Positions 23,274-41,258 of a DNA stretch of 64,000 nucleotides are shown in pieces (within the stretch, counting starts at the first letter, position 1; every line of letters starts with the position of its first letter). Below the pieces are notes generated by a model. That model saw nothing but the letters and a program-made list of their open reading frames with translations. It had not been told where the DNA came from and searched no databases. The DNA comes from Isoetes taiwanensis (lineage: Eukaryota > Streptophyta > Lycopodiopsida > Isoetales > Isoetaceae). A program made the translations under genes and the position numbers. The DNA lies in assembly GCA_021234155.1 (NCBI GenBank), contig JAJEKV010000384.1, forward strand, positions 64,501 to 128,500, given 5' to 3'.

Positions 23274-24390
23274 TTAGAATAGCACTTCTCTTTCAAAATA
23301 AGGCCTGAGATCCTTGCCATTTCTGGGATTAGGCAACAATTCCCCTTCTGGAGTCATCAAGTAGAAAGCCCCACCTGGTACCTCTTTATCAATCAGAAAT
23401 GGGCCTTCCCATGGGCTTTGAAATTTGGATAGATGCTTCTTAGTGGTCCTGCACAATACCAATTGGCCTTCCTCAAATGGATTGACAACCTGTAACTTGT
23501 CTTTGATAAGCTTTACCTTCTGTTTATGCCTCATATTGAAATCTGCTGCTTCTTGTCTCATCTCTTGCAATTGCAGCAAATCATCCATCCTATTATGTAC
23601 TTGATTTGGAGTTGGAACTTCTCCTAAATTCTCATAATAAGGGAGCTCCACAAATGAACACAAAGGAATGTCCAAATGAATAGGCATCACAGCTTGCACT
23701 CCATAAACCAATTCAAATGGTGTAAATCCTGTCGCTAACTTGTAAGTACACCTGAAACTCCATAAGGCACCTGTCAAGGCTTCATGCCAATTTCTTTGAT
23801 TATCCTTCACTGTTTTGGCCAAGATAGCTTTCAGAATTTTGTTAGTAGACTCAGCTTGCCCATTGCCCTGTGGATAATAAGCAGAAGCTTGCACATGTTG
23901 AACACCAATCTTTTCTGTTAACTGAGCTACTACTTTTCCCATGAAATGACTTCCTCGATCAGACAAAAGAATGGTTGGAACACCAAACCGAGAAATCAAA
24001 TTGTGATAAAGAAAGCTTACTGTGGTATTTTCTGTAGCATGCTTTGCTGGAATTGCTTCTACCCACTTTGTAAACATACATGTGGCTGCCAAGATATACT
24101 TATGACCTTTGGAAGATGGAGGATTGATAGGCCCAATGTAATCCAATCCCCACATATGAAATGGACCAACACTCAAAATAGGATGGAATGGCATATTATT
24201 ATGGCACCGTTAATCGCTTATGCCTTTGACACTTCTCACATTTGCTAACAAAGTCTCTAGTATCCTTGTAAAGAGTTGGCCAATAATGTCCCCAATGAAG
24301 GATCTTCCGAGCTGTGGTTCGGCTGCAAAATGCCCCCACGACAATCATGTGCTTGCTGCAACAAATCATGAGTTTGTTGACCAGCAACAC
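23274..24390 (-). pseudogene. Ty3 integrase region
   Basis: The zinc-binding HHCC module lies at 24390-24199 (ILHWGHYWPT...FVSKCEKCQRH). After a frameshift at about 24196 the catalytic core follows at 24194-23274. The catalytic triad is visible: D in WGLDYIGP, D in LLSDRGSHF and E in NGQAESTNK, with 35 residues between the second D and the E, the canonical DD35E spacing. The C-terminal part has KFQSPWEGPFLIDKEVPG, a GPY/F-type module. The core itself is open, so the damage is confined to the junctions. Confidence 0.9.
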
Positions 24391-25900
24391 ATCTTAATAA
24401 GAGACCTTCCATAGTCCTCTTATAAAGAATAGCTTCATGCACCACATAACCAGCTGCTTGTACTCTAAGAGCATGCTTTTGTTGCTTTGAAAATGATGAA
24501 GGATAAGTCTGATCTTGCAAATACCTGTATATGTTGGCATACCAAAGATCCACCGTCTCAATGAACCCTTGTAATACGCCAAAGATCCGGAACTGCCATC
24601 TTGGCTGGTCTGTTTCCTCTTCTATTTCAGCACCACTACTCAAATAGGCACTTGGATTATGAGCTCCTTGAGCCATCTTAACATACTTCAACTCAAATTC
24701 TTGTATGATAAGAGCCCATCTTGTAAACTTAGGATCTTGTACAGTCTTATTGTAAATGCATGGCAACGGGTTCACATCCATATGAATGTAAACATCTTGT
24801 ACATTTGCTGAATTCCATTGTGACGGAAGAAGATAATGTCTAAATTTGTTCAAGGCCCACTTCAATGCTAACCCAAGATGCTCCACATAAGTCCATTTCT
24901 GCTCTTGTGGAGTTAACACCCTGCTAGCATAATAATTCACATCATAATGCTTTTGCTGATTTTTCTGACATAGTGTGACAGCCAAAGCTTGCTCCCAAAC
25001 TGTAAAGAATAAATGAAATGGCTCACTCATTCTTGGAGGAATCAGCAAAGTTCTCTCTTTTAATTGTGCAAGGCACCATTCAAATGCTTCTTGAGCATCT
25101 TCCTTCCATCTAAAATGCTGCCCTGGCTTCATACAATCCACAAGTGGCTGGGTTATTTTAGCAAAATTGTGCAAATACCTCCTACTAAAACTGAGTTGGC
25201 CATATAAGCTTCTCACTTGGGATACATTTGTAGGTGGTTTGACCTTCTCCAAGGCTGCAATCTTACCATGATCCACTTGTAATCCCTTTTCTGAAACATA
25301 ATTGCCCAATAGTTTTCCTCCTCTAGTGAAGAAAATACACTTAGCAGGATTCAAACTTATGCCATACAATCGGCATCTTTCAAGAACTTTTCTGAGATGA
25401 TCCAAGTGATCCTTTCTTGGATTAGAAAAGACTGTTAAGTCATCTATAAAGACTCTCAAAAAGTCTAAAATATCATGAAAAACATATGTCATAGCTCTCT
25501 GAAATGTGGCTGGAGCATTTGTGAGGCCAAAAGGTAATACCTTGTAAGCATAGATGCCAAAAGGTGTTCGAAAAGCCGTCATTGCTTGATGTGGTGGATA
25601 GATTTGGATCTGATTATATCACGAAAGTACCCATCCAAGAAAGAATAGGCCTGATTTCCTGCAACAATATCAAGCAAAGTGTCTATGAATGGTGTAGGAA
25701 AATGATCTCTTTTGGTAGCTTTGTTGAGATCCCTGTAATCAATGCATACTCGGATTGAGTTATTTGGCTTTCTCTTTGGGACAATAGAACTGATCCAATC
25801 TGAATTTGGTATTTTGGTACAATAAATTCCGCCTCCAAAAGCTTCATAACTTCAGCCTTTACTTGCTCCTCTATTCTTTGGACTCATTCTCCTTTGAGCT
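24257..25900 (-). pseudogene. Ty3 reverse transcriptase and RNase H region
   Basis: The open part (25582-24257) starts inside RT with FGIYAYKVLPFGLTNAPATF and contains the active-site FIDDLTVFS. It continues through the connection domain (VSQVRSLYGQLSFSRRYLHNF) into RNase H (YASRVLTPQEQKWTYVEHLG). The RT N-terminus is present in other frames: at about 25620-25790 CIDYRDLNKATKRDHFP and DTLLDIVAGNQAYSFLDGYF can be read on the - strand. At least two frameshifts lie between 25580 and 25900, and another near 24330 separates RNase H from integrase. The element cannot make an intact pol. Confidence 0.9.
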
Positions 25901-25925
25901 TGTTGGACTGGTTTTGATCCTTGTT

Positions 25926-26859
25926 TCAAATCAATGGTATGAACCACAACCTCACGGTGGAATGCCTTTCAAGTCTTTGTAATTTCTTGCCAAAACATCC
26001 CCTGAATTCTCTTAACAAAGATATCAAATCACGTTCCTCCTCTTGAGTAAGATCGCCTCCAATAGTAACCAATTCTTCTTGATTTCCTTGAGAAATATTG
26101 ATGTTCTTGGTGAATGTGGTGGATTTGTAATGAAGATGGTGAGTGGTGAGTGGTGAATGGTGTGGGTGAGTGGTGATGAATGTGTTGAAAGTGGTGATGA
26201 GTGATGAATGTGGTGCGTGTGATATTTGTGGTGACTGTAATGGAGGTGGTGAATGTGATGATTGTGATGAATTTGGTGCATGTGGTGACTGTAATGACTG
26301 TGGTGAATATGGACTGATCTGATTTACCTCATCCTCCAGAATGTGCGCATGCCACCAAGCTTCTTGTACTTGTATAGTGGGCTGATTTACATTTACCCCA
26401 TCCATGCTTGATGTCAAAATCAGCATCTCTACTTGATCTAGATCAATACCTTGCTGAAAAGAAAGTGTCATCAATGGGTCTTTGAATGGACTCCTCCTTC
26501 ATGTTTACAAGAGTCTCTTGTAACTCACCTTCACCAATACTTTCAAGTCTTTGGATATACTTATCTGCAACTTGCTGCTGTAAATGACATATTTCTGAAA
26601 TTTGGGTACCTTTTAACCACTTGTACAAAGTCTTATCTTCCCTGTCACCCACTTCCAAGACATGAAAACAACTAAGACCTTGTTGCCCTGACACCATAGC
26701 ATTCTCTTTGCTGATTTCTAACTGCGGGCTGCTCAAAGAAGGATTGCAAAGAAAGATACCTTTTGCTGATTTCAGAGGATGATCTATAGTAACCTTGTGT
26801 TCTCCTTGAAAGATGTTCATTTCAAGGCTTCCTCCATGAAGTCTCAGCTTGTACGGCAT
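25926..26859 (-). pseudogene. Ty3 protease-RT linker with His-rich minisatellite
   Basis: Two overlapping frames (26859-26443 and 26474-25926) link protease to RT. The second contains histidine-, serine- and threonine-rich repeats (SPLTTHHLH, SSQSSHSPP) encoded by a GGTGAGTGGTGATGAATG-type minisatellite at about 26107-26310. The same motif fills the LTRs. A conserved TTNVHIS-like fold was not recognised. The segment LLREFRGCFGKKLQRL resembles the usual pre-RT region (evlkeFkDvFa-type). Confidence 0.6.
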
Positions 26860-27197
26860 CTAACCATGTACGGCTCAGCAACAAAGTATAAGTTTCAGCA
26901 TGCACACTCTCTGGAAATTTCAAAACCATGAAATCCAAGATTGCTTCCACCTCATAAACCTTGCATAAGACATTTCTTATGACTCCCATAGGCTGCACCT
27001 TCATTTGATTGAATGCTTTGAGCATCATAGTTGTCGGTTCCATCATTTTCAATCCAACTTGAAGCATGATATGGTAAGGCATTACATTCACTCCCTTTGC
27101 CGGTATCTATGTTGACCTCTTTGATTAGATATCCATTAATACTCACATCACAAAGAAATGGCCCAGGATCCTTGGATTGCCGGGCTGGTGGCTCCAT
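26822..27197 (-). pseudogene. Ty3 aspartic protease (frameshifted)
   Basis: One frame (27197 leftwards) has FLCDVSINGYLIKEVNIDTG, with the retropepsin DTG active site, and then loses register. A second frame (27091-26822) continues with MPYHIMLQVGL, VEAILDFMVL and LLLSRTWLDAV, equivalent to the family's C-terminal protease strands. The frameshift just after DTG inactivates it. Confidence 0.75.
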
Positions 27198-27261
27198 TCT
27201 CCTCTTGTCGGTATCATTTGATATGATTTGTTGGACTGAAATTTCTAATTTTGTTCTTCCC

Positions 27262-28908
27262 CTAACTCTTGCAACAAATTTGAGAGTAATGCATCAATTG
27301 CTCAAGAGTAAGTGTAACTTTAGTGGCCAAAACTTGGCTGATCACATCATCTTCATTTTGAATGTTCTCATCCACCATAGGAGGCATCACTATGGGCTGA
27401 TTTTCTTCTATAGACTGAAACTGTTCTGTGGGCAACACATTGAATTGCACCTTCTTAGGTGCTGACATCTTCAAAGCATGTTCCTTCAAAGCCTTTGGAA
27501 AAGAGGTCTTAGTCTTCTCTGCAATTGGCACTACTCTTGGTTCTTGAACCACCTTTTGTGATCTTGTAACGGCATTTACTTCTCCAATCTCTTCTTCTTG
27601 CTGAAATGGGTCATGCTCCACCTCAATAAATCCACAATTTACTACTGATTTTGCCTTCTCTTGCTTCTTAAGCTCCTCAATAAGAGCCTTAACTTGAGGA
27701 TTTTCAATGTACTTTGCATCTTGAATGCGAACATCATTATTAGGAAGAGGTACTGATTCAAACACTTGCTGCTTTGGTGGATACTTGTTGGTTGCCCATT
27801 CTGGTTTCCCATGAATTTTCCAACAAGTAGTCTCATCATGCTTGAATTTATCACATAACTTGCAATACAAATGAGCCTTACTTGGATACCATCCCTGTTT
27901 TGGCTGCACCATTGGTGTGGAACCCATTGAAACTTGTTGGGCAATTGGAGCTTGTGGCATCATTGGAACTTGTGGTATGATAGGTGCTGCTTGCATTGGT
28001 TGAATAGGAATCGATGGTGCTTGTTGCATAACAGCAAATACCGGATTGGCCCTCTCAAAGAATCTCTTCTCCCTACATTCTTGATCATTATGGCCCTTGA
28101 TGTGGCATCTTGAGCAGAATTTCAGCAATCTACATGTAGTATCAGAATGTCCAATAGACCCACAATACTCACAAGTAATAAACTGCACCTCCCTTGGCTT
28201 CTCACCAATTGTAAGCTTAGAAATCTTGGCTGCAATATCCTCTGTTTTATGCTCTGGAGCAGCAACTTCATGAATGTATCCTAGCTTATCTTCAGCCTTG
28301 AGAGCATACTTTTGTGCCTCTAGTAATGTTGTGGGCTGTTTAGCCTTCACCTTATGAGCAATAGCTCGTTTCAGCCCCTTCACATACCATTGGATATCCA
28401 TTTCATCATTCCTTGCAATCTTCTAATGAACCACGGCTTTGAGAACCATAATGTACCTCTGATTATACTCTCTAATTGATTCATCTTCCTTTTGTGTGAA
28501 ATTTGTCCACCTTTCCATAGTCTTATCCTTACCATGGACTTCTTGATAATTAGCAATGAATGCTTCCTTTAATTCCTGATATGTCATGGTATCTGGCTGA
28601 GTTTGTGCCCATTCCTCCCTTTGAATCTTGCAAAGAACTATAAAACCAAAGCAAGTAATCAGCAGCCCGGTAGGTAACTTACATTCTTGGCAATACCTCT
28701 CAAACTTCACAATATGCTTCAAAGGATCCCGATCCACCAGATCATCAAACTTTGGAATCCCCATTGTATCAGTAAACCCCATACCACGGTGGTAAAACAG
28801 CCATCTCTGCCTCTTCCGGGTTTCTTGAAATTGGAAAAACGAAATTGAATCTCCCTTCAATTTGAAAAACGAAATTGGATTACCGTGTAGATCGGTAAAT
28901 GGAATCAA
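27262..28908 (-). pseudogene. Ty3 gag with zinc knuckles
   Basis: One frame from 28908 to 27262 is broken only by a TAG at 28423-28425. The capsid-like part has TMTYQELKEAFIANY and KEDESIREYNQRY. Three C-x2-C-x4-H-x4-C knuckles follow: CEYCGSIGHSDTTC, CSRCHIKGHNDQEC and CKLCDKFKHDETTC. A glutamine/proline-rich segment lies between the second and third knuckles. Three knuckles is more than the usual one or two. The start at 28908 is the first Met; the true start is uncertain. Confidence 0.9.
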
Positions 28909-30114: not shown

Positions 30115-30288
30115 ATTCTAGTTTTTTTGGTTTGAATTTTAAAATTTTTGTCACACCCGGGTGGGGGGTTGATCCCTAAGGCTCGAAGGGGCCAAAAAAA
30201 ATTTTTGTAACACAAACCATTAACATCCAACATATAAAAATTAAATCCCCAACACATAACAACCAACACATAACAACCATTGACATTA

Positions 30289-30739
30289 ACAACCAACACA
30301 TAACTACCATTGACATTAATTAACACAACCATTGGGTCCAACACATTTAAATTAAAATCCCCTTAAACCCCTTTTGGTTTGGGTGCATATTCACACGGGG
30401 GTGGCGTAGGGCAGCTTAGAGCCCTCATAATTGTATTTTGCACATACTGAAATCAACACCATATAGTATTCCGCTTTGAAATCTTATAGTATTTTGCGAA
30501 TCTTGTTATACAAGATAGCAAATTTTGTACTTGCATACTCCACAAACGAGGAACTTTCGCACGGTATAGATTAAGGAATAAGGGGTGAATATGCCTATCG
30601 AACAGCTCGTTGTTCCGAGTCACCCCCGCGGTGAATATGCACCCAAACCAAAAGGGGTTTAAGGGGGATTTTAATTTAAATGTGTTGGACCCAATGGTTG
30701 TGTTAATTAATGTCAATGGTAGTTATGTGTTGGTTGTTA
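30289..30739. repeat. Long inverted repeat (arms about 115 bp, loop about 220 bp)
   Basis: The left arm (30289-30402) and the right arm (30621-30739) are near-perfect reverse complements. They include CAACACATAACTACCATTG / CAATGGTAGTTATGTGTTG, AACACAACCATTGGGTCC / GGACCCAATGGTTGTGTT and CCCCTTTTGGTTTGGG / CCCAAACCAAAAGGGG. Outside the left arm, CAACACATAACAACC units repeat. It is most likely a foldback or MITE-type element. A transcript would fold into a long hairpin that could feed small-RNA pathways, which is inference. Confidence 0.85.
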
Positions 30740-30744
30740 TGTTA

Positions 30745-32089
30745 TGGATTTTCGCAGGAAATCTTATTTTTTGAGTATATCAAAGTTGCGTTTAGATTCT
30801 ACAGCTGAAACCCTTTATCGTGTTGTACAAGAGAAATTGAAAGAGATTGTGGATCTGAGTCTAGTTGATTGCAAAAAAAACTAGTTTGTTTTGGTACAGA
30901 TGGAGCTAGTGTCATGACAGGCTGTAGGAATGGATTAGCAATTAAATTGCAGACTAGTTTCATGCCTTATGCAGTGGCAATCCATTGTATGGCCCATCGC
31001 ACAAATCTAGCTTTCAAAATTATCTCAGACTTTGCTTGTGTTCAGAAGGTTGAGAATCTTGTACGTGCAGTCAACCAATTTTATTGTCGCAGTCCACAAA
31101 GGTTTGCTTATTTCCAGCAATTTTCTATTGGATTAAGTGAGGGATTAAAATTGCTAAAGGATGTGGAAACTCGTTGGATATCCATAGCTTTACCTATTCG
31201 TAGATTATGCGATGAATATATATCTGTTGTAGGGGCTTGTGCAGAGTTTGCTGATCAAAATGAAGCAGCGGCAACTGAATTATTTGGGCTTCTTACAGAT
31301 GCTGAGACCTTACTATCTCTCTATGCTCTTACTCCATTGCTTAGGGAGTTAACCTTCTTGATTAAACAGGCTCAGGATCGGACAATTTATATCCCGGAGT
31401 ATTCTATTGCAAGAAAGGTAGCATGCACTAAGCTTGACAAAATGTATATCGGAGAAGATTGCTTTGACAAGGATGAGGCATTTTATAGATGGCAGAACTT
31501 GGTGTCGTTGCACAATGAGAATGGAGCATTGTGCATATATGTAAATGAGCAGTTCTTTCCTTTGCATTATAGGAGGAGAGGTGGACGAAATAATTATATG
31601 CGGAGAATGGAAGTGCAAGTAGCAGATTTTAATGCACTTGTTTCATCTACAAGAATTGAGATGAATTCTGTGGCAACATGTCTATCCTCTGAGTTGCGAT
31701 CAAGGTTTCCTCGGGATGAAGTTTTGGATGCTTTCGGTATCGTGTTTCCTAATTTCTGGAACAACATTACAGCACATGAGGTATTGTTTCGTAGATTTAC
31801 CACAAACTTAGGAGTCTTGCGAGATCATTTTTGTATTAAGCATGTGGTTGAAGGAGTGGAAATTGATGGTATATTAGATCTAGAAGCATTGAAAGAACAA
31901 TCAGGATTATTTGGGTCAACTATGTATGCCCAATTTGGCCTGTTAGAGAAGCCATTGGAGCAGGGTGCAGTTACAAGATTATGGGTCAAATTGACCACGC
32001 ATCAATATTTAAAGGCTGCTATGAGTGAATACATCAAGTTGGCAAATCTAGTTTTGACAATGATTCTTGGTAGCGTGGAAGATGAATGA
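30745..32089 (+). pseudogene. hAT/ZNF862-like transposase, C-terminal part
   Basis: A long frame (30869-32089) has FGTDGASVMTG, then AIHCMAHRTNLAFK and DVETRWISI. These are the conserved DUF4371/hAT landmarks: catalytic D-containing DGASVM, the CxxH-like CMAH and the TRW block. Just upstream, another frame at about 30770-30865 reads LRLDSTAETLYRVVQEKLK, matching the segment that normally precedes it, so a frameshift lies near 30868. There is no N-terminal zinc finger and no typical C-terminal dimerisation motif before the stop at 32089, so it is a truncated copy. A GCAG at 30754-30757 could be a splice acceptor. It follows the long inverted repeat directly. Confidence 0.7.
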
Positions 32090-32717
32090 GCTTTTAGCTC
32101 ACTTTCTTTTATAAAGAATAAGTTGCGCAATAGATTGGATGCAAACTTAGATGTCACAATGCGTTTATTCAAGTGCGAACGCTGAATTACATCGGTGATT
32201 GTGTTTGCAGCATCTGATCTTAATTCTACATGTAAATCTGTAGCATCCGGTGGTAAATTTTAAGGCCGATGAAGATGAACAGTGATTTGGGCAGTGCGGT
32301 TAGCATAGTGATTTTGGGCAACAATACAGGACGCCAAAATGCGCAATATAATTGTGCGCAAATAGAGCAATTTGGATTTGTTAAGTTTAGTATATGATTT
32401 TCTTTCCTACTCGCAAAGAAACCTTATGGCGCAAAACAAGTTTGAGAAGGCTCTAAAATGATAGGTGAGCTATCGCGATCTCAATGATCACGGGGGCTCT
32501 TCGACAAATATTGACCTAGTTAACATCTTTACATGTTAGATATACGGATGTGGCCAATTCGATTTTTTTGAGAAAAAATTAGTCCCATGGTTTCGCCATT
32601 TAAGTTACAACCCCTTGTTGTAACAATTCAAAAAAGGGCCAGGCCAAACTATGCTTAGCAATTCATCCAAGGTAAGTAGTGGCGAATATTTTACGCCCCT
32701 TCAAATATGTAGGGAGG
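32090..32717. other. No gene recognised
   Basis: AT-rich sequence after the transposase stop. No coding signal or repeat was seen. Confidence 0.4.
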
Positions 32718-33068
32718 TTAAAAAATACCCTGGCGTAATCCCTTTGCTGGACTCCAGTCCTTAGTTGTGGTATACTTCTTCCCCTGTAAGAAGCTTTGAC
32801 CATCCTTCAAGTAGAACTTGATGTGATGTTGAAAGGCGAGATCATTCAACTTGTTCACAGCTTGTTCTCTGTCTGAACGTTGAGAGAAAACAAACTCTCT
32901 GAAATCAGTAGTCACTTTAAGAAGCTCAATCACTGGAATGGGAGTGTAAGAATCTTCAATAATTCGAACTAATGTAGGAAGAGAAAAAGCCTTCTTCCTT
33001 CTAAGGTGCACAGAAAATTTGCTGAACATTTGGTCAGGAATACACTTTGTCCTCCAGGCGAAGGGCAA
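32718..33068 (-). CDS. Unrecognised ORF divergent from the methyltransferase-like gene
   Basis: A 116-codon frame on the - strand. The first residues are encoded inside the palindrome array. From RKKAFSLPTLVRIIEDSYTP onwards it looks protein-like, with alternating hydrophobic and charged residues and the segments VIELLKVTTDFREFVFSQRS and NKLNDLAFQHHIKFYLKDG. A possible splice acceptor (GTGCACCTTAG) before AAGGAAGAAG near 33000 suggests the true 5' part is another exon and that the Met at 33068 is not the start. I do not recognise the family. It is transcribed away from the + strand methyltransferase-like gene, with the array between them. Confidence 0.35.
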   Translation of the reverse strand: MPFAWRTKCIPDQMFSKFSVHLRRKKAFSLPTLVRIIEDSYTPIPVIELLKVTTDFREFVFSQRSDREQAVNKLNDLAFQHHIKFYLKDGQSFLQGKKYTTTKDWSPAKGLRQGIF

Positions 33069-33210
33069 AGTGTAATCCGGAATACACTTTGCCCATCAAG
33101 CGAAGGACAATGTGTATTCCGGAATACACTTTGCCTTTGGCCTGAAGGCAAAGTGTATTCCGGAATACACTTTGCTCAAACAAGAAGGCCAAAGTGTATT
33201 CAGGAATATG
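33030..33210. repeat. Array of palindromes phased at 41-42 bp
   Basis: Five units are centred at 33036/37, 33078/79, 33120/121, 33161/162 and 33202/203, giving steps of 42, 42, 41 and 41. The core is GTGTATTCCGGAATACAC, extended in inner units to a near-perfect 30-bp palindrome flanked by GGCAAA / TTTGCC. The outer units are degenerate (TCAGGAA centre). Linkers of 11-12 bp are not palindromic. Because the unit is self-complementary, both strands read QSVFRNTLCP-like peptides, which are artefacts. Confidence 0.95.
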
Positions 33211-33437
33211 TATCTTGGATTTTTGGAAAATAGTGTTCTTTTTTTGTTGTTTTTAGCTTACACAAATCACTTTTTAGTTAAATTAGAACACGAAAAAGCA
33301 TGTTTGTGCGACTTTTTTCTGGCTATTTTTTCTTCTTTTTGCTTGCATTTAACGCACAAATTAGCAAACCTTATTCTGGAATACAGTTTTCGTCCCTTTT
33401 CTACTCGTGACAGTGTTGTTTTAAACATTTCTCTGGC

Positions 33438-35386
33438 AGGAAAGAAGGAAGCAAGAAGGCACCAAAGAAAGTGCTTAAGATTGTCCAGCGGCCTCATCCA
33501 ATAAAGCAGACTAGGGACACACAGACGAGCCTGCGATTTACGAAAATTTTCAAACACAGTGGTCCGTAACCAGGGGTGCAAGCGGCAAGTACATCACACT
33601 GACATTTTTTCAGGTTTGCAAAAGCCCTGGGAACAAACGGTACGCTGACTCCGAGTTTGTCAACCTTGGGACAATAAAAGATATTTCTGAGGTTGCCGGG
33701 CAAGGAGGTCAAGTGGGGAGGCTATCTTTCAAGACCTCCCAGGGCTACATTGTTGTAGACATTACATGCTTCAGAATCGTCAGTGTGCAACCACAGGCAC
33801 TGTACAAGTACATTTTCCATTACCGGAACAAACAAAGCCTAGCTTCCATTATTAGGCAGGTTTGTGCCAGTCAGAGCGAGGACTTTCCAGTTAGTGAGTC
33901 CGAGCATGAGGAAGAAGCTGAAGAATCTCCTTCTGCTAGTACTTCTGGGCAGGAAAAGGATAGAAGTTCCGAGGAAGAAGTAGAGGAGCAGCCCAAAAAA
34001 CTTAGCAGGCCAAGAGACACCATAGCTGCTAAGAAACCAAAAAAGAGGAAAGTACAGCAGCTTGAAGTAGTAGAAATCCCCAAGGAAACCACAAAGAAAA
34101 GAAAGAAAAAAGGAAAAGCACCCGGGGTTGCAATAAAGGAAAAGAAACTTGATAAGACCTCCAAAAGAATGGAGGCAATAAAGAGAGAGAAATTTGTACA
34201 AGGGGTGATTTATCTTCTTGTCACATGCATGAGGCTACCCCTAAGAATGAAGCTGGTGAATGGCCACTTCAGGTTCGAAAAATCTACTCCGATCACTTGA
34301 GGAACCTGAAGGATAGAATAAGGAGCAATCCAAATGCTCATGTGGCCAGCGGTGCACAACCCCCCAAGACTATGACAGGGAAAATGCAGACACCTACACA
34401 CACTATGTCTTGAGAGGTAATCACGGCTTCAAGGCAAGAAGGCAACTCTACAGAGAGAAGCAGATCACAACGGCCAAGCATTGGCGATTAGTTGTATTCC
34501 ATTCCACCATGCAGGCAGGCTTGATAGAATCAGCTTTTAAAAATCACTTCGGTTCTCTAGTTTAGGCAGGATATGAAAACCTGGTCTGGTAAGTCTTATT
34601 CCAGAATATAGTTACTAACCTCCTCGATTACGTCTCGTATTCTGGAATAGGATTACTGTGTTTCTAGTTTTTGAACTGTTTTCTTGTTTTTGCTAACATC
34701 ACTTCTAATATTTCACTAGGTACAAAACGAACATCAACTATCATGGTGGAGGACCAAGTTTACTCAGCAAGGTGGAGTACCTTCATGTTGCTTACTGGAG
34801 TTTTGACGGGAAGAGAACCATAGAGCACTTCAACATTGCCGCCTGCCAAAACTTTTCAAATGTCCTAGAGTTTCCAGCGGTCTTATAGAAATTGCAGGAC
34901 CCAAGTGCACAAGGCAGGATTGTAAATTACTACCAGAAACCACAAAAGCTCATCAACCATCTGCTAGACATGTTCACGCGTCCAGGAGATTGGGTGCTTG
35001 ATGCTTTTTCTGGTTCTGGTACTACCATTGCATGTGTACTTAAGAAGGGCCGCAACTGTGTAGCCGTGGATATTGATAAGGAGGCTGTGAATTTTGTTAG
35101 GATGAGACTGGCAGCCTTACCTACTTTACTAGATGAAAATCAAGAGTTAGGGGCCAAGTCTTCATCTGATTATGCTAAGCTGACATCCTCAGAGATACAG
35201 CCTCCTTTCTCGAGCTCACTAGACGACGAGGCCACCTTTGCAGAGCTTAAAGAAGTAGCTTTAGCTACCATTCCAAAGGACAAGGCAGAGGCAAAAGGTA
35301 AGTATCCAGCAAAGGAGCAGATGACAGAGAAAGAAAGTGCTGAGACCAGTAAAAAAATTGATGAGGAATATGATGTAGATCTTTGA
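33438..35386 (+). pseudogene. ParB-like / beta-class DNA amino-methyltransferase gene, spliced and decayed
   Basis: After a likely acceptor (CTCTGGCAG, ending 33437) come KKAPKKVLKIVQRPHPIKQ and, in a shifted frame, a continuous segment from about 33514 (ENFQTQWSVTRGASGKYITL ... YKYIFHYRNKQSL). An acidic Ser/Glu stretch and Lys-rich stretches with NLS-like KKPKKRK follow. At about 34250-34460, across a frameshift in the C6 run at 34360-34365, PLQVRKIYSDHLRNLKDRI and YVLRGNHGFKARRQL resemble a ParB-type fold (GNH...A). The methyltransferase part has ENLVWYKTN, QKPQKLINHLL (motif X), LDAFSGSGTT (motif I, SAM binding) and AVDIDKEAV (motif II), the beta-class order. Motif IV (D/S/N-PP-Y/F/W) is not visible. 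In-frame TAG codons lie at 34563 and 34886. Stop codon TGA is at 35384-35386. ParB homology is tentative; the MTase call is firm. Confidence 0.7.
34589..34719 (+). other. GT-AG intron inside the methyltransferase-like gene
   Basis: Donor GTAAGT at 34589, branch-like GCTAAC at 34692-34697 and acceptor TTTCACTAG ending at 34719. Removing the 131 bases joins the reading frame in phase 2 (TG+G = Trp) to give ENLVW-YKTN. The intron holds TATTCCAGAATA (34597-34608) and TATTCTGGAATA (34638-34649), whose centres are 41 bp apart. Confidence 0.75.
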
Positions 35387-35430
35387 CTACTGTATGCTAA
35401 AATTATTATTATTTACTACCTATGCCCTAG

Positions 35431-36282
35431 TAGAGCGTGGCAACACGCATCACATGTAATGGACAAGCCCAGTTGCTCCGCCCATGGTTCCCTAGTGGAC
35501 AAAAGGGCATGGAGTATACATGCCATTAACACCTCTCGGCTTGAGGTCTTGTGGTTACAAGAACTTGCCTAAGGTACTTCCCTTTGTCATAGACGAGGGT
35601 TCAAGTCCTAGGTGCAACAGTGCTATATGCTCCCGCTAGCCCCGCCCATTGGCGGTGTTGCTTAATGGTTGTTCTATTGTGTGGTGCGGCTTTATGATTT
35701 CATAAATCCTTAGTACTAAATGTGCCATCTGGCATGGGAAAGGCCCTCAGTAGAGCGTGGCAACACGCATCACATGTAATGGACAAGCCCAGTTGCTCCG
35801 CCCGTGGTTCCTTAGTGGACAAAAGGGCATGGAGTATACATGCTATTACCACCTTTCAGCTTGAGGTTTTGTGGTTACAAGAACCTGCCTAAGGTACTTC
35901 CCTTTGTCATAGACGAGGCTTCAAGTCCTAGGTGCAACAATGCTATATGCAGGCTAGCCCAGCCCATTGACGGTGTTGCTTAATGGTTGTTCTACTATGT
36001 GGCACGGCTTTATGATTTCATAAACCTAGAGCGTGGCAACACGCATCACATGTAATGGACAAGCCCATGCCCATGGTTCCCTAGTGGACAAAAGGGCATG
36101 GAATATACATGCCATTACCACCTCTCGGCTTGAGGTTTTGTGGTTACAAGAACCTGCCTAAGGTATTTCCCTTTGTCATAGACGAGGGTTTAAGTCCTAG
36201 GTGCGCGCAACAGTGCTATATGCACTTGCTAGACCTAGGCTAGCCTCGCCTGTTGGTGGTGTTGCTTAATGGATGTTCTACT
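35431..36282 (+). repeat. Tandem array of a tRNA-derived SINE-like unit (3 copies)
   Basis: Units start with TAGAGCGTGGCAACACGCAT at 35431, 35751 and 36027 (lengths about 320, 276 and 256). Each carries an A-box-like GAGGTYTTGTGGTTACA (AGGTCTTGTGG at 35544-35554 in unit 1). The first unit has the B-box-like GGTTCAAGTCC at 35598-35608, a spacing compatible with tRNA-derived Pol III promoters. Later units have GCTTCAAGTCC and GTTTAAGTCC. Units end with GGCTTTATGATTTCATAAA. A 5'-truncated copy lies at 12176-12410. Head-to-tail arrangement is unusual for a SINE. Confidence 0.7.
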
Positions 36283-36588
36283 GAGAGATTGTCTTTTATT
36301 CGGCATCTCGATGCTCCCAGCATATATAAGATGTGTCCATGTCCTTCATTTATACCATGCATAATGGTCATGCATCTGACCAACGTCATTAAGCGTATCC
36401 ACGTGGCTACATGGTCCTCTTACTCGTCAATAACCTTGCGTCTTTATTTCACGCCCCAGGAACATCAATCTCCTTACGAAATGCAACGTATGCGTAATTT
36501 TATAATCCATAGTCTATACATCTGCGTTGCTATACGCCATTCATCCTCTAGCTTATATAGCATAAGCATTCTATACCTTCAACCTACA
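36283..36588. other. No gene recognised
   Basis: Unique AT-rich sequence between the SINE array and the LINE poly(A) end. No coding or repeat signal was seen. Confidence 0.4.
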
Positions 36589-39500
36589 CTTTTTTTTTTC
36601 TTTTTGAGAGTAAGAGTAGATTTTTCTATTAATCAAGAAAAACAATGCATAGATCTGCTTAGACTAGCAGAATACATCTTAGTAGAGGTCTTTAACTATA
36701 ATCATCCTACATAGAAGGAGGAGATATAGTCCAAAAGTAAATAAAACAAGTCAAGTCTGAAAAATACTGTATTGACCAATGAAGAGAAATCAGCTAGTGT
36801 GAACCAGTCTCCAAGATAAAGGATAGTAGTCACGACCCCAACCAAAATTGGATCTTGTTAGCACCTAAAAAAAAGCAACCAAAATTCTGGCCAGATTAGG
36901 AGGTAATATTGAGCAATTGATGACCAGGCAGGGCAGGAAATGAAGCCAAGAGTGTAGAACAAGGCTAGGCAGTTTAAAGGCATAGAGAGTCCAGCTTAGA
37001 GTTAAAGTAGGCATAGAAAGGAGCAGCAGATCCAAAAGCATAGGAGTCATTGGTCTGCTCAATAACTTCATCAAAGCAAGAGAGATTAGTCTCACTCAAA
37101 TAAAGCAAAGAGCCATATAGGTCTGCCAGCAATCTGTGTATGTAGTACTGCTCTCTGAACCTTGAAAACTGATTCTCTGACATAAAGTAGTGGTACATAG
37201 AAAGGAAGTCGAACATACAATACACCTGCACCACTTCCCTACAGAATATTCCTGCTAAAGTTGTATTTTTGCATAAAACTGTCTCATTCATAGTAAGTTT
37301 GCTGAAAAACAAGCTCAGATCATGGCCAACATCTTTCTTGAGAGGATTATCTTCCATTTCCCCCAAGCTCGCCTTACATATCTTCAAGTAAGCTAGCATC
37401 ATCACAAAAGGCAGAATTAGAATTAATGACATTGAAATTGGATGCAAATAATTTAAAAGACCCCCTGAATAGACCAATTGAGTCCCATTTTCTGTTATAC
37501 TTATCAGCAAATTTTCTTTTGTGTGCTGAGGCAGTGGACTCAACATCAAGTTGAAAGTGCATCTTAATCCAAAAGGTTGAGAAATTCTTCTTACCATATA
37601 CAACTCTATTCCTTGCTTTCCAAACATTCCAAAGAGCAATAAACATGATAGTATTAGCAAAGGCACAGTTATTTTGAATATATGACAATAAATTACCCGA
37701 GATCTTGTTGGGGAAGAGATAACCCAGCTTATCATTAAACCAAGACCAAAAAGGATTGAGTTTAGGACAAAGAAATATATGATCAAGATTTTCATCCAAC
37801 CTACTACCAAGATGGCACAGGGCAGAGATATCCTCATTCCTATTGGAAAGCAATTGTAAATTTGGAATACTTTTATTGGCCAACAGCCAAATGAAGAAGT
37901 TGACCTTAGGGAAACAGTAAGAGTTTCAAACCTCATGAAAGAGTGACTTAACTTCCTCCTCAGATATAGACCATTTAGAACTTGCTTTGGAGGGGACAGC
38001 ATTTCTGTTAATAACAGAATAGATATTACTGACCTTATAATGGCATTTGCCTTCAAGGCTCCAGTTGGTTGCCTTTGGAACAACATTATTCAACCATACA
38101 TGAGGCAGAATTGATTTAATATGAAAATAAATCTTTTTGTCACTTAAAGTACCCTGAATGATGTTTTTCAAATAAGTCCAAGAAATTAACTTGTTATTGA
38201 TGTAAAGGTTACATAAGAACTGGAAACCATAGTCAGACCACTTCTGTAGATCCTCGGGTGTCTCAAAGCCAGGACTTTACTTGGATGATTCTTGATAACG
38301 GGATTCTAAAAAATTGTCATGTGCAGGTTAAGATCTTGAGGAGCAGCATAGTCATAGGCAAATTGAACTTTATTCCAAGCCATAATATGTTCCTCATAAG
38401 AGGGGAAGTATTAGCACCAGCATGGAGGACATTGAAGCAAGAATCAGGTAAAATATGTCCAATTGAAGGATGACCATCAGGGTGAGAGCATGAGAGCCAA
38501 TATCTGATAAACTGAGAGGATGGACTAGCGTTATTCATAAATGGCTTCCAAATATATTTTCCAGCTAGAGCACAAGCTTGCAAATGAAGATTTTTGCAAC
38601 CTAAACCACCAAATTTTTTAGGCTTGGTAATATACTTCCAACTTACTAAATGAGATCCCTTCCATACAAACTTTCTAATTGTTTTCTCAATCTCAGAATA
38701 AACAGCCTTAGGAGCCACTAGAGCAGAAGAGAAATAAATATGAGAACTAGCAAGAACAGAATTAGCAATTAAAGTTCTGCCAGCAAAGGATAATCCCCCT
38801 CTAAAGTTATTTAACTTCTTTCTAATTCTGTCAATGATAGGCTGCCAAAGACCTTAAGAGACAGAGGCATTCCCAGCAGAGTGGAAGCTTGATTGGGATT
38901 AAGAACTTTAATATCAGCAAAATTTGGCTGAATATTATCTCCAATAATCACACATTTGGCCAAATTTAAATGGACACCAGAAGCAGCTGAAAATTGCTTA
39001 ATTATCTCAAGGAAAAAATCAATGTTAGAGATATTAGCATCCAAGAAAGCAAAAGTGTCATCAGCATATTGTGAGAGGGTGAAAAACTCTTTACTATTTG
39101 GCATTTTGAGACCCTTAATTTTTCCAAGATCTTTAAAATGTAAGACAGCCCTTGTAAGCATTTCAGCCACTATCAGAAATAGATAGGGTGCAAGAGGGCA
39201 GCCTTGTCTAACTCCTCGAGCTAAAGGGAAGAATTGAGAAGGGGATCCATTTAAAATGATAGCCGAGTTAGAATTGGCATTCAATCCATGAATCAAAAGC
39301 TTTAGCTTGGGATGAAAACCAAATTTAGAGAGAGCAAGATCAAGGAAATCCCATCTCACAGTATCAAAAGCTCTCTTAAAATCAAGCTTTAAAAGCACAC
39401 AATTTTGATTGGAGACTCTATTCCAGTGAAGGCCTTCCATAGCAGTAATGTAATTGTCCAAAATAAACATGTTAGACAAAAAGCTGACTGATAATGAGAG

Positions 39501-40543
39501 ATATTTTTCTGCAGGTAAGCTTTGATCCTATTTGCAATGATTTTGGCACAGATTTTGTAGGAGGTGTTGGTTAGGGAGATAGGCCTCCAATCAGAGAAAG
39601 CAGATGGATTATCTACTTTAGGGATGAGAGAAATGAATCCAGCTGAGATAGAAGGATGAAGATAATTAACATCCCAAAAACCTCTAACTATAGAAATGAT
39701 GTCAAATTTGAGAATATCCCAAAAGTGAATATAAATTCACTTGGAAGGCCATCTGGTCCAGGAGACTTACCTTTGCCAAATGATCTAAGCACCTTAAAGA
39801 TCTCATCCTCCCCAAGAGGGGCCACAATAGATTCTTCCATGGAATCAATGGAAGAAGGAATCACCTTATCTAGCAGATCCAGAAAATTCTTTTCTTTGAC
39901 TGAGTCAATATGCTGAGCAGGAATTTTGGAAAAAAGGGAGGCATAGCTATATTGGAAGAAGGATTTGATAAGCTTAGGATCCTCTAAAGATAGCTCTGCA
40001 TCAGTTCTAACTTGAGTGATTGAAATTCTTAAGAGTCTGGCTTTAGCCATTTTAAAAAAGAATCTGGAGCTGCCACAGTCCATATGTCTTTATTAAACTT
40101 TATCTTGCATTTGATTGTTGAGCTTTTGGCTTCAACTTCCTCAATGCTTTTAAGATAATTCTCAAGCAGCTCCTCACCAAGTTGCAAATTTAGATTATAG
40201 GGGTCCTCTTGAAGGAGAGATCTGATATCTCTCATTTTGGAAAGCAAGTGCTCTTTCTCATTGATTTTGGCCATATGCCTGCTTTTTGACCAGTCCTTAA
40301 TCCAGTTTTTGATCCTTTTAATTTTACGATAGAATCTTTTCATGGATTGCTGATTACCTTCTTCAGGAATGTTAAGATAGAAATCCTTGAAATTCCTCAC
40401 AAAGGATTCACTCTCAAGGAGAGCACAATTAAATTTGTAGGACACATTGCCATCCCTAGGAATTTGAATTAGCTGTTTAGTGCATAAGAATTGGGGCTGA
40501 TGGTCCGAGATAATGTTACCTTCATCACTAGTGACATAACAAT
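36589..40543 (-). mobile_element. L1-type LINE, 5' part lost, ORF2 degenerate
   Basis: On the - strand the element ends in a poly(A) tail, visible as a T-rich run at 36589-36605. Reading 5' to 3': the end of the endonuclease domain with IISDHQPQ (about 40490), a charged linker (40470-40090), PGPDGLPSEFI (about 39720), RT with FDTVRWDFLD, GVRQGCPLAPYLFL and the active-site QYADD (about 39070), and a zf-RVT-like module with LCHLGSRLDENLDHIFLCP (about 37790). The C-terminal IALWNVWKARNRVVYG and a roughly 370-base 3' UTR follow. Frameshifts lie near 39480, 38800, 38200 and 37900. The 5' end is cut exactly where an LTR begins at 40544, so the first half of the endonuclease and ORF1 are missing. 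Confidence 0.92.
38811..40083 (-). pseudogene. LINE reverse transcriptase domain
   Basis: The best-preserved RT stretch, 39479-38811, contains LLKLDFKRAFDTVRWDFLD, LNGSPSQFFPLARGVRQGCP and SQYADDTFAFLDANIS, followed by VHLNLAKCVIIG. This is the full palm and thumb motif series of a plant L1 RT with an intact YADD. Upstream, 40083-39688 gives DEIFKVLRSFGKGKSPGPDG. The bases between (39480-39690) contain SLIPKVDNPSAFSDWRPISL in another frame, so two frameshifts interrupt the domain. Confidence 0.9.
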
Positions 40544-41258
40544 TGTGACGTTCCAGCACAGTATACGCTCCCAGGACGTATACTGTACTGCCTCGTCACG
40601 CGTACACGCCATCCCGATTGACGTGTATGCCGACGTGTAGCCAAGCAAGTAGCACCCTGGGGGGCAACTTGCAAGGTGTGTACATTTATTTATGTGCACA
40701 TTTATCCATGTGTACACATTTACCCATGTGTACACTTTATGCCACCTACATGCAACCCAGGAATAGCCCCCTTGGCTATGCATCCGGCGGGCTACAGTCA
40801 GGTCCAAACACTTTTTCAACCTACTTTGCAAAGTGTGCACAGGAGGGGCGGATGGAGTGGACTACCCTAAGCCATGTTCTTATGCCAGCCAAATCCATTG
40901 CCATGAATTCTGTCTGCAATGACCTCTGGAGACCCAAGTCGTCAGTCATCCCCTTCGAGTCTGAGCCTTGGGTAGGATCTCCATATGTGATGTACTGATC
41001 TTTGCCTATATGTGGTGAGCCATCCTTCGTGATGGTCATGTGATGTAGATGCTGTATACTGACATGTATGTTTACGCTTCCGCAGCTAGGTAGGCCCTGA
41101 AGGGAGACATGGTAAAATGACCCCTTCATTCTTCCCACTGGAACTCATCAAGGTTGCAGTGACACGTGGAGGGCCCTATATTAGCATGGAGCTGGTATGG
41201 GGGATGAACTCCTATTTGTATACGGTGAGTGCACCGTATATAAGTAGGGGACGTCACA
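40544..41258 (+). repeat. Single LTR of a second LTR retrotransposon
   Basis: A 715-bp unit begins TGTGACGT at 40544 and ends ACGTCACA at 41258, perfect 8-bp inverted termini with TG...CA. A primer-binding site follows after one base, which defines the 3' edge. A TATATAAG box lies at about 41235-41242. No partner LTR or gag/pol is present to the right, so the rest was deleted. The LTR sits exactly at the break in the L1 endonuclease region. Confidence 0.85.

Follow-up and report, generated by a model that had tools for sequence, protein, structure and literature searches.

A DUF7869 transposon of Isoetes taiwanensis with a ParB-like/DNA methyltransferase gene and palindrome arrays that it may mark itself

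Introduction

Why does the nuclear genome of a lycophyte contain a spliced gene that joins ParB-like sequence to a bacterial-type DNA methyltransferase, and is this gene a single capture or one of many copies? The question is raised by a locus in the window, by which we mean the whole 64,000-nucleotide stretch of the Isoetes taiwanensis genome analyzed here (contig JAJEKV010000384.1, positions 64,501–128,500). An earlier note, made from the letters alone, had described such a gene at 33438–35386. We find that the locus is a broken copy of an element that is very common in this genome. The best explanation as a whole, to which we assign a probability of roughly 55%, is a transposon whose methyltransferase would read and mark the element's own palindrome arrays, countering silencing and/or gating access to the element.

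Results

The locus in the window

The remains of one copy of a ∼7.4-kb DNA transposon, decayed and internally deleted, occupy the region 32733–35386. The start of the feature therefore lies further to the left than the 33438 of the earlier note, which dealt with the gene alone and overlooked the transposase, terminal repeats, and palindrome arrays of the element. On the minus strand, the copy opens with the remnant of the C-terminal coding part of the transposase gene (32733–33036, ∼304 bp; ORF 32718–33068), which was assigned by its nucleotide identity to sister copies (95.1% to L025, 93.1% to L016, 89.9% to L014, and 87% to L010 and L024). A first deletion makes this remnant run straight into a palindrome array at 33037–33208, which comprises 4.1 units of 42 bp and contains (G)TATTCCGGAATA(C).

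The methyltransferase gene follows on the plus strand. The 3′ part of intron 1 (33327–33439) holds a lone palindrome (33372–33383) and the acceptor AG (33438–33439). Exon 2 (33440–34347) encodes a basic start, an N-terminal domain, an acidic and basic (NLS-like) linker, and the start of the ParB-like domain; the Lys-rich stretches and in-frame stops described earlier are present in the sequence, with in-frame stops interrupting this exon. The central ParB-like box (34353–34460) reads GNHGFKARRQLYREK in the window and GNHSFKARRQLYKEK in sister copies, whose ParB-family matches are given below; the GNH..KARR stretch noted here reads VLGGNHSFKARRQLYKEK in the sister copies. A second deletion of ∼1.6 kb, sized from the coordinates of L021, removed exons 3 and 4 and the DLPYG motif and fused the box to the 3′ end of exon 5 (34460–34588, ITTAKHWR...ENLVW). 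This deletion explains both the abrupt appearance of the GNH segment and the lack of a visible motif IV, on which the earlier note was right.

Intron 5 (34589–34719) carries palindromes at 34597–34608 and 34638–34649. The proposed GT-AG intron is exact, its position and borders being kept in L018 and L021 and its acceptor also in L025. Exon 6 (34720–35386) encodes motif X (QKP), motif I (LDAFSGSGTT), the motif II region, and an acidic tail up to a TGA stop, and contains one in-frame TAG. QKP, LDAFSGSGTT, and AVDIDKEAV follow one another in this order in the ORF 34892–35386, which matches PF01555 (E 5.4e-16), in agreement with its assignment as the C-terminal half of a beta-class methyltransferase. 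Conserved introns and sister copies thus support the reading of a spliced eukaryotic ParB-like and beta-class methyltransferase gene that is now a pseudogene in the window. Neither end of the window copy, searched for as terminal repeats, was found, and an Rfam search of 32000–37000 gave no match.

The surrounding DNA is rich in other repeats. Directly behind the methyltransferase remnant, a repeat of ∼202 nt is present three times in tandem (35429–36219). It contains GGTTCAAGTCC, which we take to resemble a tRNA-type B box, and the tandem is perhaps a SINE array. On the plus strand, a 406-amino acid ORF (30869–32089) looks by eye like a hAT-like transposase and has no significant Pfam match. 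The minus strand carries pieces of a Gypsy-type polyprotein (23274–28908; integrase, reverse transcriptase, and zinc-knuckle-like gag by eye) and, again by eye, LINE-like endonuclease/reverse transcriptase pieces (36974–40559). Nested inverted repeats at 30249–30747, with arms of 97 nt that are 93% complementary and 259 nt apart, are possibly a small foldback element.

A large family of cut-and-paste elements

A PF01555 profile search of the genome (1,658,258,908 bases in 1110 contigs) returned 1443 first-look candidates. The best 150 were scored, and all of them, the window copy included, lie above the curated cut-off, so that the methyltransferase match is far beyond chance. The choice between a dispersed family and a single capture, which the earlier note had left undecided, thus falls to the former, a large family of DNA transposons. 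Bacterial contamination was rejected, since the introns are conserved, the copies are dispersed, and scans with a few peptide patterns revealed no close relative; in the scan of genome contigs with two such patterns, 0 of 36 stretches were confirmed. Matches confined to intronless bacterial contigs would have contradicted the eukaryotic reading; relatives occur instead throughout the genome with conserved introns.

Twenty loci of 10 kb were fetched from the PF01555 matches and compared all-against-all. In most of them, the shared block ends at the same right border. It stops short of this border in L010, L012, and the window copy, and L027 is set apart as a more distant relative. L014, extended by L029, comprises ∼7.4 kb; the inverted repeats at its two ends start with AACA and contain AAACGGGAG, and the right end holds a perfect 11-bp hairpin. 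Together with the left ends of twelve further copies (L030–L041), 13 copies were inspected for their ends. L010 and L012 yielded no right end. Both ends could be located in the other 11 copies, and all of these except L022 are flanked by 4-bp target duplications. L016 is inserted in the frame of a Gypsy polyprotein, and this frame is restored once the element and one 4-bp duplicate are removed. The closest pair among the fetched copies is 96.1% identical across 6774 bp. A Helitron, suggested by the 3′ hairpin, and LINE-like 5′ truncation, suggested by the coverage of the loci, were both discarded, because the element has inverted repeats and 4-bp duplications at its ends.

The left ends of the 13 copies also carry a second palindrome, GGAATATTCC, which presents the ATTCC half-site of the family 1 arrays described below in inverted arrangement. 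It is exact in 11 of the 13, has one substitution in L015 and L025, and is also present in L043.

Inside the element ends, the minus-strand gene of the sister copies matches DUF7869 (PF25273, E 7.1e-51). From its place in the element we infer that this gene encodes the transposase. DUF7869 yields 9902 first-look candidates in the genome (150 scored) and none in 14 control genomes. For one transposon group, 9902 such candidates are a very large expansion. When the best 150 methyltransferase matches are set against the best 150 DUF7869 matches, at least 24 pairs lie within 15 kb. At least 17 of these are divergent, with DUF7869 4.9–6.2 kb upstream of the methyltransferase; in the remaining seven, it is 9.6–12.3 kb upstream (six pairs) or 10 kb away on the other side (one pair). 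Transposase-matching sequence is present in 17 of the 20 fetched loci and absent within 10 kb in L019, L023, and L028. The length of the duplications, 4 bp, would fit Sola transposons, but they are not AT-rich, unlike those given for Sola2 (PMC3627910). From its gene anatomy and ends, the lineage is almost certainly a cut-and-paste DNA transposon with two divergent genes, one for the transposase and one for the ParB-like/methyltransferase protein.

The methyltransferase gene

The plus-strand gene has six exons and encodes an N-terminal domain, an acidic/Lys-rich linker, a ParB-like domain, and a beta-class methyltransferase. The GT-AG borders of introns 2–5 and the acceptor of intron 1 were each observed in L018 or L021, and the gene starts with ATGGACAG/GTAAGC in L016 and L021. 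Exon 2 contains the N-terminal domain, linker, and ParB-like domain, exon 5 motif IV (DLPYG), and exon 6 motifs X and I. Spliced exons of L018 score 69.6 bits against PF01555, compared with 59.6 bits for the window copy (cut-off 26.7). The motif order in the sister copies, D[L/I]PYG–QKP–FSGSGTT, is the beta order IV-X-I, and the closest solved structure in a PDB search is CcrM (E 7.6e-11). The first residue of motif IV, aspartate, fits the N6-adenine type, the second being leucine or isoleucine and not proline; the specificity predicted from these motifs is probably N6-adenine. Intact copies are likely to possess DNA methyltransferase activity. Among phage records, the highest identity is 27.1% among the matches listed (15 of 686), and one viral relative (L059) is an SPPY enzyme with 23% identity and no visible ParB part.

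The ParB relationship proposed for the GNH segment holds as a modest profile link. The phage profile phrog_1033 (ParB-like partition protein) matches the domain of a second element family, introduced below, with E 2.2e-6 and a peptide of the first with 0.028, and TIGR03764 (ParB family) matches the first-family domain of L021 with E 2.4e-4, far below the cut-off of that model. A match to PF02195 was not obtained in Pfam, where the best name was DUF6551 (0.004) and all others stood at chance level. The second-family domain had no match in NCBIfam, the L021 peptide had no ParB match in PHROG, and PDB searches with the domain reached no ParB structure. ParB identity of the central domain is therefore probable, with two libraries that do not agree on both families. 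In one search with the ParB region, a plasmid-encoded "nuclease" of Cytobacillus was matched at E 0.07, but the sequence belongs to a long phage-like protein in which inspection by eye showed no ParB, and we dropped it; the remaining eight hits, Pseudomonas ParB/Noc proteins (E 0.6–2), were left uncounted.

A ParB-like part could also act as a nuclease, and the protein would then be a selfish modification/nicking enzyme that aids excision or addicts the host. A bacterial ParB-methylase fusion with nonspecific nicking, Bce_0392, is described (PMC5512222). Inspection by eye of the open frames of L014, L016, L018, and L021 revealed no restriction-type gene, and we regard this explanation as highly improbable.

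Palindrome arrays between the exons

With at most one mismatch allowed, 7 palindromes in the window match TATTCCGGAATA, against 0.15 expected, and all of them lie inside the element. In the 19 loci of the same family, which we call family 1 (L027, a member of family 2, is excluded from the counts), there are 237 such palindromes. None falls in exon-matched bases, which make up 63,424 of 106,875 bp (coding stretches outside query coverage count as other); 220 occupy other bases within the span from the first exon match to the last, and 17 lie outside this span. They are located in introns 1, 2, 3, and 5 and upstream of the gene. Among spacings below 60 bp, 91 of 118 measure 41 or 42 bp. When the spacing was tested for helical phase, the values at 10, 10.5, and 11 bp were nearly equal, the units being non-independent. 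Single mismatches are transitions at the central CpG in 106 of 136 cases, indicating that the host probably methylated these cytosines in dead copies and that any protection failed there.

Four families with different cores

Six DUF7869 loci were fetched regardless of the methyltransferase, two high-scoring ones (L043 and L044) and then L047–L050. Part or all of exons 2–6 of the methyltransferase gene is found in three of the six, L043 (with L045), L044 (with L046), and L048. L043/L045 and L044/L046 belong, with L027, to a single second family, which has both genes and whose palindrome core is GAATTC or AAATTT. L048 combines the methyltransferase gene with 25 perfect TAT-AAATTT-ATA sites, some of them between the exon matches. 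In L049, only part of exon 2 matched; L047 has an array and no match to the methyltransferase gene. L050 has CTAT-GCGCGC-ATAG sites, gave no tblastn match to the methyltransferase gene, and contains an N-terminal domain recognized by eye (28–33% identity to the others). Seven further pieces of 1.3 kb were selected among the listed DUF7869 matches blind to their sequence: five have repeated TAT-N6-ATA sites of a known core, L052 has two ATGCGCGCAT, and L051 has no array.

The survey thus distinguishes four families in one genome, of which three carry both genes and the fourth (L050 type) is known in part. They share the frame TAT-N6-ATA with family-typical cores (TCCGGA, GAATTC/AAATTT, AAATTT, and GCGCGC), those of families 2 and 3 partly overlapping. 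We take these cores to resemble classical type II sites. Spacings cluster near 41–42 bp in family 1 and at 20–22, 28–34, and 41–43 bp in family 3. As the GCGCGC core contains no adenine, any mark there would have to be N4-cytosine or else fall within the flanking TAT and ATA.

Between families 1 and 2, identity decreases from 74% in the transposase core to 68% in exon 6, 55% in the ParB-like domain, 45% in exon 5, and 22% in the N-terminal domain. Family 1 has a constant TCCGGA core, yet its N-terminal rows are only 47–86% identical to L016, which weakens the idea that the N-terminal domain reads the core.

The palindromes could also be sites at which the transposase or host factors act in transposition or expression, with the methyltransferase modulating transposase binding rather than silencing. 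Dam modulates transposase binding in Tn10 in this manner. The left-end palindrome with its shared half-site, exact in 11 of 13 copies, fits such a role, as do the arrays that L043, L044, and L047–L050 carry in the stretch from the transposase start to the second gene. Usual transposase sites, however, are not found in mid-element or in the introns of a methyltransferase gene, where these arrays lie, and families 1 and 2 have different palindrome cores despite 74% identity of their transposase cores. We consider this explanation unlikely, and we slightly favor recognition of the arrays by a protein of the element itself.

Selection on the methyltransferase

Pairwise dN/dS was calculated for stop-free copies with at least 90% exon coverage, most discarded pairs being saturated at synonymous sites. 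The medians, which the selection of stop-free copies biases toward constraint, are 0.13 for exon 3 (29 of 45 pairs usable), 0.04 for exon 4 (19 of 78), 0.13 for exon 5 (17 of 45), 0.11 for exon 6 (42 of 91), and 0.13 for a transposase segment (21 of 28). Clean copies are scarce elsewhere, with one for exon 2 and three for the transposase core (0.48, 0.46, and 0.12). A looser first pass, which kept broken copies and dropped those with <70% coverage, gave medians of 0.31 for exon 2, 0.46 for the transposase core, and 0.04–0.13 for exons 3–6. Values near 0.1 at high divergence suggest that exons 3–6 of the methyltransferase were under purifying selection while the element spread.

Such selection at high synonymous divergence is difficult to reconcile with a captured passenger gene that brings no benefit, accompanied by palindromes that are minisatellites spread by slippage. 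The tandem spacings of 42 bp and 30–32 bp are typical of minisatellites, tandem duplication by itself is able to spread a palindrome, and many copies are broken. Nevertheless, the gene is retained over three families, with methyltransferase exons that are 42–75% identical and motifs IV (D[L/I]PYGF), X, and I conserved, and the TAT-N6-ATA frame recurs with different cores. A mere passenger is thus improbable, and a methyltransferase at work on the element's own arrays is preferred.

Discussion

The element would act in three steps. The ParB-like/N-terminal part, as a dimer, would recognize the arrays of its own element, the methyltransferase (probably N6-adenine-specific) would then mark the element DNA there, and the mark would protect against host silencing in the manner of VANC and/or control access to promoter and transposase. 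Dyad palindromes such as these are what a dimeric enzyme, ParB-like or type II-like, would be expected to read. An anti-silencing role is suggested by the likeness to VANDAL/VANC anatomy, with family-typical tandem sites in non-coding DNA beside a fast-changing protein; by this analogy it is possible, with the odds somewhat against it. That a bacterial-type ParB-methyltransferase has become a complete self-marking system, in which arrays and enzyme change together and only the element's own copies escape silencing, is a tentative and rather doubtful extension.

The VANDAL elements of Arabidopsis (MuDR) are likewise plant DNA transposons with an extra gene and short, family-differing motifs in non-coding tandem repeats; introns and the DNA upstream of the transposase gene are where VANC motifs are reported to form such repeats (PMC5735166). 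Family-specific short motifs are also concentrated in non-coding DNA of the Isoetes element. In contrast to VANDALs, the latter, known from sequence alone, has a DUF7869 transposase, 4-bp duplications, dyad palindromes, and a ParB-like/CcrM-like methyltransferase, and no MuDR-type match occurred among the proteins scanned in Pfam. As its proteins are DUF7869 and ParB-like/PF01555, we do not class it as a VANDAL and compare the logic only.

DNA-modifying enzymes are known from other mobile elements. Fungal DNA transposons carry TET/JBP enzymes, which are dioxygenases and not methyltransferases and accompany other transposase superfamilies (PMC12730594). DNA methylases are described for DIRS, for LINE and DIRS-like elements of Symbiodinium, and for giant-virus Mariner elements (PMC5890265, PMC3627910). 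Mariner-2_PGv, Mariner-1_OLpv, and DIRS with Dam-like methylases resemble the Isoetes element in encoding a methyltransferase; they differ in their transposase or recombinase types, in the methylase families described for them, and in being viral or retroelements (PMC3627910, PMC5890265).

Among bacterial and phage proteins, CcrM, RsrI, and phage beta-class adenine methyltransferases share the motif order IV-X-I, CcrM being the best PDB match, and the ParB-methylase Bce_0392 combines both parts in one protein (PMC5512222). The Isoetes gene differs from them by its eukaryotic introns, NLS-like linker, and extra N-terminal domain. Bacterial-type amino-methyltransferases that have turned into eukaryotic genes include bdelloid N4CMT and the Marchantia 4mC methyltransferase; these are described as host genes, and the bdelloid enzyme has SPPY in place of D[L/I]PYG (PMC8885841).

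In titles and abstract openings of the open-access literature, no eukaryotic DNA transposon with a ParB-methyltransferase appears among the matches listed, and DUF7869 is mentioned in no paper of the open-access literature searched. The novelty of such a transposon is provisional, as the search was limited to open-access papers, without subscription papers, preprints, or Repbase.

If our reading is true, plant transposons would have a second, independent route by which to recognize themselves and fight silencing, an enzymatic one, and the Isoetes element would amount to an enzyme-based equivalent of VANC that arose independently in a lycophyte. Discrete palindromic sites would make the target code readable. 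The arrays are accessible to long-read data, the published Isoetes assembly having been built with Nanopore reads. The element would then be a source of sequence-specific 6mA (or 4mC), a disputed nuclear mark, at predictable places in plants.
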